Shown here piece by piece: positions 3,301 to 60,100 of a stretch of 64,000 nucleotides of DNA. The stretch is from Lamellibrachia satsuma (taxonomy: Eukaryota; Annelida; Polychaeta; Sabellida; Siboglinidae). Numbering within the stretch: the stretch's first letter is position 1; every line of letters begins with the position of its first letter. The translations under genes were made by a program, and so were the position numbers. The notes below the pieces were generated by a model. That model had not been told where the DNA came from, ran no database searches, and was given only the letters and a program-made list of their open reading frames with translations. The stretch spans positions 274,001 through 338,000 of the forward strand of contig BSQZ01000106.1 of NCBI GenBank assembly GCA_033239005.1, written 5' to 3'.

Positions 3301-5884
3301 TCTGTGATTACTATGTGACTGCATAATTTGTCATTATCATTACCATCAAAGGCCAGTTATTTGTGAAGAATACAACCAAATAATCCAGAAGTTTCATATA
3401 TTTATTAGAATAAAAAATATTGAAAATAGAAAAGCAGTGTCGCTGTCACTGCACGGCTAGTGTCTCACCTACTTGCTGGCAATTTCATAATGATATTTTT
3501 TTACAACGGTTCATTATCATTACATGGATTTAAAATTGATCGTTTTCAATATCATTAAGTAATGCACACCATTGTTCTCATTTCATTATCATTAAAAGGA
3601 CTCTCCCGCAGCTCTCTGCAATGACCATTCATGCATCCATTAACTGCTGTCTACAGTAGAATCCCTATTTAAGCGGCCACCCATGTGACTGAGATAATGG
3701 CCTCATTGAAGGGGTGGCCTGATTACAGAGGCTGGTCAAATATACACTGATGTACAGATCTGGCCAAAAAGAAACTGATTGAGTGGCCGTTTTCCTGGGG
3801 TGGTCGTTCCCAAGGGGTGGCTGCTTATTGGAGGAGTTCTACCGTATCTTTACCTGCAGGATGGTGTCTATCAACCACACTAATTTCCATGGTAATGAGT
3901 AATTTAAAAAGTATTAAAATTCCCATAATTTCTACTTTTCTGTTATTTAAATGTGGTCCTCTTCGCCTCTTGCATGAAGTTATTTATAGTTAGATATGCA
4001 CTTAATTTTATCATAAAACTCAAACTGAAACTTAAAAAACTTCTGACGTTGAGAGATGGAGCAATTACAGGACAAATGTAATCAATGACAATTACTGTTA
4101 AATGAGTATGATTACACATATGATTACTTAGAACATGAGTAATCGATTACGATTACTTTTGTGTGTAATCATGGTTACAACCATGATTACATTCAAGCAT
4201 GTAATTTACATAGTGAAATTAATAAAAACCCTCATGTTATTATTATAACTAATGTTATTCAAGACAAAATCAAACAAAATATTAAAATACAGTCACTATC
4301 AATTCATTACATACAAAATGAAGAGGAGACCCTGCTTACTACATATCTGAAATCTAGACAACATAAATATGCAGAAGAAAATTGTAATCATTGGCCAGGT
4401 AGTCGATTACAATTTCTCCAAAATTGTTAAAATATGTAAACTTGTACGCCACTAATAATTTGTAACCAAGGAATTTGCCTGAAGGTTAAACAACACTTGC
4501 ATTTGTGTCGTTTATGTGTAAAATACACATTCTCTTGCAGAATGGTCCAATGCCCTTCAACAAGTTCATGTTCCTCATGTTGTGACTCTGTAAAGTACGT
4601 GTTCTCCTGCAGAATGGTCCAATGCCCTTCAACAAGTTCATGTTCCTCATGTTGTGACTCTGTAAAGTACGTGTTCTCTTACAGAATGGTCCAATGCCCT
4701 TCAACAAGTACATGTTCCTCATGTTGTGACTCTGTAAAGTACGTGTTCTCTTACAGAATGGTCCAGTGCCCTTCAACAAGTACATGTTCCTCATGTTGTG
4801 ACTCTGTAAAGTACGTGTTATCTTACAGAATGGTCCAGTGCCCTTCAACAAGTACATGTTCCTCATGTTGTGACTCTGTAAAGTACGTGTTCTCTTACAG
4901 AATGGGCCAATGCCCTTCAACAAGTACATGTTCCTCATGTTGTGACTCTGTAAAGTACGTGTTCTCTTACAGAATGGTACAATGCCCTTCAACAAGTACA
5001 TGTTCCTCATGTTGTGACTCTGTAAAGTACGTGTTCTCTTACAGAATGGTACAATGCCCTTCAACAAGTACATGTTCCTCATGTTGTGACTCTGTAAAGT
5101 ACGTGTTCTCTTACAGAATGGTACAGTGCCCTTCAACAAGTACATGTTCCTCATGTTGTGACTCTGTAAAGTACGTGTTCTCTTACAGAATGGTACAGTG
5201 CCCTTCAGCAAGTACATGTTCCTCATGTTGTGACTCTGTAAAGTACGTGTTCTCTTACAGAATGGGCCAATGCCCTTCAGCAAGTACATGTTCCTCATGT
5301 TGTGACTCTGTAAAGTACGTGTTCTCTTACAGAATGGTCCAGTGCCCTTCAACAAGTACATGTTCCTCATGTTGTGACTCTGTAAAGTACGTGTTCTCTT
5401 ACAGAATGGTCCAGTGCCCTTCAACAAGTACATGTTCCTCATGTTGTGACTCTGTAAAGTATGTGTTCTCTTACAGAATGGTCCAGTGCCCTTCAACAAG
5501 TACATGTTCCTCATGTTGTGACTCTGTAAAGTACGTGTTCTCTTACAGAATGGTCCAATGCCCTTCAACAAGTACATGTTCCTCATGTTGTGACTCTGTA
5601 AAGTACGTGTTCTCTTACAGAATGGTCCAATGCCCTTCAACAAGTACATGTTCCTCATGTTGTGACTCTGTAAAGTACGTGTTCTCTTACAGAATGGTCC
5701 AATGCCCTTCAACAAGTACATGTTCCTCGTGTCATGGATGATACGAGAGATGCTCTTCATCCTGGTCTACTTTGAGGCAATCTTCAACGTCAGGCACATT
5801 AAGTGGGGAAGGCGAACGTATCGTCTCTCGAACTTTGGCGAGTCAATAGAAATTGCCAACGACAAGTCAATACTGCCAATCTAG
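224..5884 (+). CDS. UGCG: Ceramide glucosyltransferase, 3' part (five exons)
   Basis: Transfers glucose from UDP-glucose to ceramide, the first step of glycosphingolipid synthesis, on the cytosolic face of the Golgi. Five exons (224-339, 710-888, 1651-1737, 2983-3175, 5693-5884) join in compatible phases into about 255 residues matching the C-terminal two thirds of the family. Visible family marks are LVHQMPF, the CFTGMS segment, the acidic AEDFF motif, and the RMVRW form of the (Q/R)XXRW motif split between exons 3 and 4. They are followed by hydrophobic membrane segments (IPLGVYMSW, FACHWSVWCMLDY, MLFILVYF) as in the human enzyme. The N-terminal membrane anchor and the D1/D2 region lie before the window. 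The last intron carries 16 decoy copies of the final splice acceptor. Identity rests on recalled family sequence, not a search. Confidence 0.93.
340..709 (+). other. UGCG intron, no distinct feature
   Basis: AT-rich intron between two UGCG exons. I see no repeat array, no coding signal on either strand and no recognisable mobile element. Confidence 0.8.
710..888 (+). CDS. UGCG: UGCG coding exon with acidic catalytic motif
   Basis: Acceptor gttgcag at 703-709, donor gtaagt at 889. Encodes VYFGATVARYY, CFTGMSYLLKK and FLAEDFFIAKYL. EDFF corresponds to the family's conserved EDYF, expected to hold the catalytic acidic residues. The exon ends after two bases of a lysine codon. Confidence 0.93.
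889..1650 (+). other. UGCG intron, no distinct feature
   Basis: 762-base AT-rich intron with a clean donor and acceptor. No supported internal feature. Confidence 0.8.
1651..1737 (+). CDS. UGCG: UGCG coding exon ending in the RXXRW motif
   Basis: Acceptor ttgcag at 1645-1650, donor gtacgt at 1738. Encodes GFRHKVAAVPAQQNYTATS and VAVYKDRMV. The last arginine codon is split, and joining restores RMVRW, the (Q/R)XXRW acceptor-binding signature of processive-type GT2 enzymes. Confidence 0.92.
2163..2241. repeat. 39-bp direct duplication in a UGCG intron
   Basis: Two adjacent copies of a unit containing ggcatgtttccagtaattac start 39 bases apart. The rest of the 1738-2982 intron shows only the TA tract next to its acceptor. 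Confidence 0.85.
2913..2961. repeat. TA microsatellite next to a UGCG acceptor
   Basis: About 24 TA dinucleotides ending roughly 20 bases before the acceptor AG at 2981-2982, where the polypyrimidine tract would normally be. Confidence 0.95.
2983..3175 (+). CDS. UGCG: UGCG coding exon with membrane segments
   Basis: The acceptor AG at 2981-2982 sits about 20 bases after a 49-bp TA microsatellite, leaving only a short, poor pyrimidine tract. Encodes WMRLRLNMMPITTGFFEP, then hydrophobic stretches around GVYMSWSMYHF and IWFACHWSVWCMLDY, ending LSGVQ at a phase-0 donor (gtatgc at 3176). Confidence 0.92.
3654..3844. mobile_element. Pogo/Tigger-like MITE flanked by TA
   Basis: 191 bp bounded by TA on both sides (3652-3653 and 3845-3846). 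The left end cagtagaatccctatttaag and the right end read on the other strand (cggtagaactcctccaataa) form imperfect terminal inverted repeats. The ends plus TA target duplications fit non-autonomous Tc1/mariner-pogo elements. There is no coding capacity. The family is inferred from the end motif only. Confidence 0.6.
4060..4430. mobile_element. Possible hAT-like non-autonomous element
   Basis: Many copies of GTAATC/GATTAC motifs occur in both orientations, including gtaatcgattac and gattacaattt. Dense short subterminal repeats of this kind are typical of hAT-type elements. I could not define terminal repeats or an 8-bp target duplication. Confidence 0.3.
4541..5692. repeat. 72-bp x 16 array of the UGCG last splice acceptor
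   Basis: The unit starts exactly at the exon boundary. It holds 36 bases of the terminal exon (encoding NGPMPFNKYMFL) followed by 36 bases ending in gttctcttacag, the acceptor itself. Unit starts at 4541, 4613 and so on to 5693, exactly 72 apart. Copies 1 and 2 differ slightly (aagttcatg; ttctcctgcag before copies), and others vary at ggtcc, ggtac or gggcc. Each decoy exon meets TGA after 14 codons. Each unit also contains gtaaagtacgt, a donor-like string. Because 72 is divisible by 3, long spurious open frames run on both strands. Confidence 0.97.
5693..5884 (+). CDS. UGCG: UGCG terminal exon with stop codon
   Basis: Acceptor gttctcttacag ends at 5692. Encodes NGPMPFNKYMFL, then SWMIREMLFILVYF, then WGRRTYRLSNFGESIEI, and stops with TAG at 5882-5884. 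It aligns with the human C-terminus (FIRES, GRYRL). The first 36 bases are repeated 16 times upstream with the acceptor, but only this copy continues into an open frame past codon 14. Confidence 0.93.
   Translation, partial: NGPMPFNKYMFLVSWMIREMLFILVYFEAIFNVRHIKWGRRTYRLSNFGESIEIANDKSILPI

Positions 5885-60100: not shown

Follow-up and report, generated by a model that had tools for sequence, protein, structure and literature searches.

Five tandem repeat arrays in two adjacent genes of the tubeworm Lamellibrachia satsuma each contain a splice site together with bases of the adjoining exon. From their sequence they can be classed as mirages, the tandem arrays duplicating exon-intron boundaries that were described in amphioxus, here in an annelid; the kind itself is already known. 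We consider it probable, at roughly 0.7, that they are local tandem duplications which spanned a junction, were tolerated and then grew inside the intron. The window analysed is a stretch of 64,000 nucleotides (contig BSQZ01000106.1, positions 274,001 to 338,000), and all coordinates below refer to this window.

The two host genes

Tandem repeats were detected with Tandem Repeats Finder (TRF) on the window, and both genes were spliced by hand with all joins in frame. The host lineage of both genes is L. satsuma, a siboglinid annelid.

224..5884, + strand: 3' part of the ceramide glucosyltransferase gene (UGCG), based on in-frame splicing, protein identity, Pfam and a solved-structure match
224-339 (U1), 710-888 (U2), 1651-1737 (U3), 2983-3175 (U4) and 5693-5884 (U5), + strand: UGCG exons
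41944..64000, + strand: 5' part of a myosin-motor chitin synthase gene with exons M1-M22, continuing beyond the window, based on an in-frame model, Pfam and solved myosins

The spliced UGCG product of 254 residues is 100% identical to Ceramide glucosyltransferase-B of L. satsuma, a predicted protein of 389 amino acids, which supports the exon start at 5693 (U5). It also matches a Pfam domain (Pfam: PF13506) and a solved ceramide glucosyltransferase in the PDB.

In the second gene a Myosin_head domain (E 5.8e-194) is followed by ChitinSynthase_IV_N, an N-terminal putative transporter domain (E 7.9e-11), and the PDB search gave an end-to-end alignment of the motor with a solved myosin-XV. The M3/M4, M7/M8 and M15/M16 joins are gap-free compared to a solved myosin motor, and at the M10/M11 join there is an insertion of four residues. 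Chitin synthases with a fused myosin motor are already known from lophotrochozoans, according to PMC3942024. A protein search with the 1141-residue product scored 8000 candidates, of which 7381 passed, using a length window that may exclude the full protein; among the best 120 of the 7381 matches there was no L. satsuma entry and no chitin synthase name, and the named entries among these 120 were mostly myosin-III.

Five arrays span exon-intron junctions

The gene models comprise 25 complete introns, fewer than the approximately 27 counted in the preliminary description, and 51 junctions. The junctions rest on the gene models and on protein and structure alignments; those of M3, M8, M10 and M15 are supported by in-frame joining and by co-linear alignment to a solved myosin motor. 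The following arrays span a junction:

4530..5732, + strand: 72 bp unit, 16.7 copies, with the U5 acceptor (exon start 5693) and 40 exon bases
43677..44249, + strand: 30 bp unit, 18.1 copies, with the M3 donor (exon end 43683) and 7 exon bases
48345..48625, + strand: 136 bp unit, 2.1 copies, with the M8 acceptor (exon start 48609) and 17 exon bases
49942..51488, + strand: 34 bp unit, 45.5 copies, with the M10 donor (exon end 49960) and 19 exon bases
57102..58147, + strand: 55 bp unit, 19 copies, with the M15 donor (exon end 57112) and 11 exon bases

The preliminary description had reported five arrays with a splice site and exon bases, and TRF recovered all of them, with 7 to 40 exon bases; the junction coordinates reported there agree with the spliced models to within one base. 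It had further placed every array in the intron with the exon-side copy intact, and this holds in all five cases, where the coding model uses the copy attached to the exon. Every array holds one junction, located at the outer edge of the array, and the outermost copy continues into the exon. Three of the duplicated boundaries are donors (M3, M10, M15) and two are acceptors (U5, M8). Of the 40 exon bases inside the U5 array, the first 36 match the preceding copy before the first mismatch.

The pentamers TACGT or ACGTA occur in the units of four of the five junction arrays (those starting at 4530, 43677, 48345 and 49942) and in none of the 12 other arrays. As a motif of junction arrays they were set aside, being 5-mers picked post hoc, which in two of the four arrays are simply GTACGT donors.

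Splice sites inside the copies

The AG is intact in all 16 upstream copies of the U5 array and in the single extra copy of the M8 array, and the GT is kept in 16 of the 17 intronic copies of the M3 array and in 18 of 18 in the M15 array. Intact internal sites of this kind would be expected if the arrays were functional, either as rows of donors or acceptors to which splicing factors bind or as a source of alternative inserts. The M3 array points the same way in its first part (43684-43899, about six units), where the exon frame stays open and each unit would add ten residues, for example VRPLVVYCIE, if internal donors were used. However, the M10 array retains GT in just 14 of its 44 full intronic copies, with GC in 29 and GA in one, and the nearest upstream U5 site, if used, would lead to a TGA after 14 residues. 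The units of 34, 55 and 136 bp would shift the frame if their internal sites were used, and none of the three arrays that were scored (U5, M10, M15; see below) shows significant conservation of its exon-derived part. We regard a function of the arrays as extremely unlikely. Judged from the reading frames, splicing at an internal site would mostly be damaging or odd.

A full exon beside a splice site favours this site through exon definition. From this general knowledge, it is likely that the exon-side site wins by exon definition from the adjoining full exon, and we infer from the sequence that the exon-side site is the one used.

Evolution of the arrays

In the M10 array one base is common to all 44 full intronic copies and a second one to 43 of them, and both are absent from the exon copy. 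Both bases, as well as the next difference in order of frequency (32 of 44 copies), are synonymous in the exon frame, so the exon and its array have diverged from each other. Within the M15 array the exon-side copy differs at base 23 from 17 of the 18 intronic copies. One exon-side base of the U5 array distinguishes the edge copy from all 16 others, though this base is located at the edge of the array. The shared intronic bases in M10 and M15 indicate that at least these two arrays homogenise internally, while the exon-side copy stays out.

Such ordered patterns of shared and private substitutions also bear on the quality of the assembly. Assemblies often have wrong repeat copy numbers and the amphioxus globin paper contains one aberrantly assembled mirage (PMC3087553), so the copies might have been created or miscounted by the assembler. 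The ordered substitutions would be improbable inventions of an assembler, and the five units are unlike one another in length and sequence, although the exact copy numbers are assembly values. An assembly artefact is very unlikely on this evidence.

Variable sites in exon-derived and intron-derived parts were compared for three arrays (U5, M10 and M15, with M3 and M8 left out). The counts were 5/40 versus 4/32 in U5, 5/19 versus 8/15 in M10 and 0/11 versus 8/44 in M15, and constraint on the exon-derived bases of the intronic copies was not significant in any of the three (Fisher P 1.0, 0.16 and 0.19, respectively). The picture is not uniform across the arrays. The 11 exon bases of M15 show zero variation across 18 copies, which could be read as constraint, and U5, unlike the other arrays, has changed less per site in its intron-derived part than in its exon-derived one.

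Both ends of the M8 unit carry the same 9 bp, the direct repeat CTTTTGTTT, of which one copy is exonic and the other intronic. By its sequence and position this is the trace expected from slippage or end joining. A founding direct repeat is clear in only one of the five arrays, namely M8. The leftover lengths in the U5, M3, M10 and M15 arrays are 51, 3, 17 and 1 bases, so that not all of them show a direct-repeat trace, and M3 (3 bases left over) and M15 (1 base) are without one.

In the exon-distal half of the 34-bp array (50588-51302), a higher-order pattern of four units (136 bp) is visible by eye.

Other repeats and elements in the window

Three further repeats lie at or near junctions:

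61734..61784, + strand: degenerate 6-bp repeat GTACGT with 77% matches, starting exactly at the M20 donor, without copied exon bases
3181..3230, + strand: 16 bp unit, 2.9 copies, starting 5 bases inside the U4 donor, without copied exon bases
2913..2970, + strand: TA tract, ending 12 bases 5' of the U4 acceptor

The TA tract had been described as abutting the acceptor at 2983; it is near this acceptor, but the 12 bases separate the two. The 17-bp array before 41857, likewise described as abutting an acceptor, would do so at a putative acceptor 5' of the start codon.

Nine more strong minisatellites (unit of at least 10 bp, score of at least 150) lie between the genes, from 17101 to 41846, and have 5 to 32.5 copies. 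The strong minisatellites found in introns away from a junction (at 2162, 47301 and 55166) have 2.1-4.2 copies. A hidden third gene under the nine non-genic arrays was searched for among 428 ORFs, which remained from 465 after the low-complexity filter; ten of them were scanned and none of the ten matched Pfam.

15882-16547, minus strand: reverse transcriptase fragment (Pfam: RVT_1, E 1.3e-11)

This fragment is probably a decayed non-LTR element. The unit of a 20-bp array, GGGGCGCGGTGG... (25707-25865), looks by eye like the beginning of a tRNA-like sequence located around 52410-52495 on the minus strand, and perhaps a tRNA-derived SINE seeded this array. ARAGORN found no tRNA in the window.

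Placement of the arrays relative to junctions

To obtain a null expectation, arrays were collapsed to one unit and placed randomly, never inside an exon and never swallowing one. The position of the founding unit is a fair null because an array grows by insertion and holds a junction only if its first unit did. The strict set contained 17 arrays from 65 TRF rows (period of 10 or more, score of 150 or more, overlaps merged), of which eight are genic. The lenient set contained 15 arrays, namely these eight and seven weaker genic rows. For the broad set, 63 rows were merged into 46 and four mostly coding ones were dropped, which left 42 arrays, with 49 of the 51 junctions mapped.

Among the 17 arrays, 0.73 junction-spanning arrays were expected and five were observed (P = 0.0005). 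The expectation was 0.96 for the eight genic arrays, again with five observed (P = 0.0007), and 0.60 for the six genic arrays with at least four copies, where four were observed (P = 0.001). With looser array lists the P value climbs, to 0.005 in the lenient set (1.29 expected) and to 0.037 in the 42 arrays including microsatellites (1.81 expected). In the 42-array set, an array edge within 20 bases of a junction was found eight times versus 3.8 expected (P = 0.035). The excess over the random-seed null is thus five- to seven-fold in the strict sets and less than three-fold in the broadest set. Since this is a single window and the pattern was seen before testing, these P values overstate how surprising the placement is. 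The statement of the preliminary description that the placement looks far from chance is too strong for one window and a post hoc test.

Chance placement would mean that five founding units happened to fall on junctions in a minisatellite-rich genome, which is compatible with the mirage reading. The 17 strong minisatellites in the window, nine of them outside the modelled genes, the post hoc choice and the P value of the broad test speak for it, while the strict tests (P of at most 0.001) and the recurrence of the same kind of array at several amphioxus loci (PMC3087553, PMC3902484) speak against it. Chance placement is a possible explanation, to which we give somewhat less than even odds.

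Alternatively, tandem duplications might start more often at exon-intron boundaries in the L. satsuma genome, possibly where transcribed exon edges suffer breaks or stall replication. Such a process would add to the mirage reading and not deny it. Besides the excess of five arrays over the 0.7-1.0 expected, it would account for all four genic arrays with at least 10 copies (unit of at least 10 bp, score of at least 150) spanning a junction, and for the two weak repeats which begin at, or 5 bases inside, the M20 and U4 donors. By plain base coverage, however, junctions are less repetitive than intron interiors. A local copy matching at least 20 of 24 bases was found at five of the 51 junctions versus 26% of 600 intron-interior points; for points outside arrays the share was 1.5% of 600. 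Older hidden duplications were not found at junctions outside arrays, where the best match was 17 of 24 bases. Together with the rising P values and the single window tested after the pattern had been noticed, this makes a process directed to junctions unlikely. The preliminary description had suggested a process that duplicates DNA at splice boundaries, which is not borne out by the less than three-fold excess in the broadest set and the lower coverage at junctions.

We treat the junction enrichment as a lead, suggestive only, and not as a result. Whether junctions are preferred birthplaces of repeats is not settled by one window.

Proposed origin of the arrays

The favoured reading of the arrays as tolerated duplications would involve three steps. 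In the first one, short direct repeats would mediate slippage or end joining, by which 30-136 bp across a junction become duplicated; M8 shows the trace expected from this. In the second step, to which the anatomy of the arrays and the amphioxus reports point, exon definition would keep using the copy with the full exon, so that the mRNA stays unchanged and the other copies become intron. Tolerance of a duplication at a junction would follow from the working site that remains in the exon-side copy. In the third step, which the copy patterns of M10 and M15 support, the array would grow and homogenise within the intron, while selection on the exon would preserve the exon-side copy and homogenisation would bypass it. 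The arrays would need no function in this account.

The preliminary description had offered, as a second suggestion, that only arrays restoring the exon on one side are tolerated. This tolerance fits the anatomy of the arrays and the mirages of amphioxus (PMC3087553, PMC3902484), and it is the reading we favour. Under tolerance alone, about one of the eight genic arrays would be expected to span a junction, and the five observed count against it as the sole factor. Tolerance by itself leaves the excess over intron interiors unexplained, and a real excess would call for an additional factor.

Comparison with known mirages

Tandem arrays that duplicate exon-intron boundaries are called mirages in amphioxus (PMC3087553, PMC3902484), where regular splicing is reportedly undisturbed by them. 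The mirages of amphioxus Adh3 are minisatellite-like and boundary-spanning, with units of 10-72 bp (Canestro et al. 2002, as cited in PMC3087553), and length and somatic instability have been reported for them (Canestro et al. 2002, via the citing papers PMC3087553 and PMC3902484). Minisatellite-like repeats across exon-intron boundaries are common to Adh3 and the tubeworm arrays. The latter differ in their annelid host, in the occurrence of five in two adjacent genes and in having up to 45 copies.

In the amphioxus globin genes BflGb6 and BflGb9, mirages have units of about 150-160 bp, and BflGb6 has 6 and 3 units in two haplotypes (PMC3087553). Either boundary can be duplicated in these genes, and the authors proposed mirages as a source of new introns (PMC3087553). 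The globin mirages resemble the tubeworm arrays in the boundary duplications on either side of the exon, in the AG or GT kept in many but not all copies, and in the unit at the cluster edge, which is excluded from homogenisation. They are backed by haplotype comparison and RT-PCR, whereas the tubeworm arrays are known from the sequence of one haplotype.

Further mirages are the 60- and 108-bp repeats of lancelet PGBD5 and, as cited there, TnC (PMC3902484). The PGBD5 repeats are unlike the tubeworm arrays in that they are imperfect, have 2-7 copies and are partly annotated as exon. Human internal tandem repeats altering gene structure (PMC2812944) are likewise located at the exon-intron boundary and may yield new introns, and intron gain by tandem duplication (PMC4974935) likewise links tandem repeats at boundaries to possible new introns. 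Both of these systems concern new introns, whereas no new intron is claimed for the tubeworm arrays.

Several structural characteristics of mirages recur in the tubeworm. The unit contains the exon-intron boundary in five of five arrays, with 7-40 exon bases and the splice site, donors (three) as well as acceptors (two) are duplicated, and concerted evolution with the edge copy excluded is seen in M10 and M15. Mirages have been described from cephalochordates, and the annelid host belongs to a distant phylum. Among the open-licence papers listed, which included the amphioxus cases as well as work on human repeats and on intron gain, titles and abstracts gave no junction-spanning array in an annelid or mollusc. 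The available portion of the Ridgeia piscesae genome paper (PMC9921365) does not mention junction repeats, and that of PMC6905558 does not locate the 27-bp intron minisatellite of abalone at a junction.

Implications

According to the amphioxus authors, mirages are possibly a general phenomenon in cephalochordates (PMC3087553). With five of them within about 28 kb of two annelid genes, mirages would extend beyond cephalochordates, and a second, distant lineage would be at hand for asking whether splice junctions are mutational hotspots or merely places that forgive duplication. It is a doubtful but far-reaching idea that minisatellites arise preferentially at exon-intron boundaries in tubeworms as well as in lancelets, through a shared process of junction duplication that supplies spare splice sites. 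If true, introns and isoforms could arise from the splice sites that this process keeps providing. Each array places between 1 and 44 additional splice-site copies next to the true site, and would serve as a natural test of how the spliceosome chooses the exon-side site.
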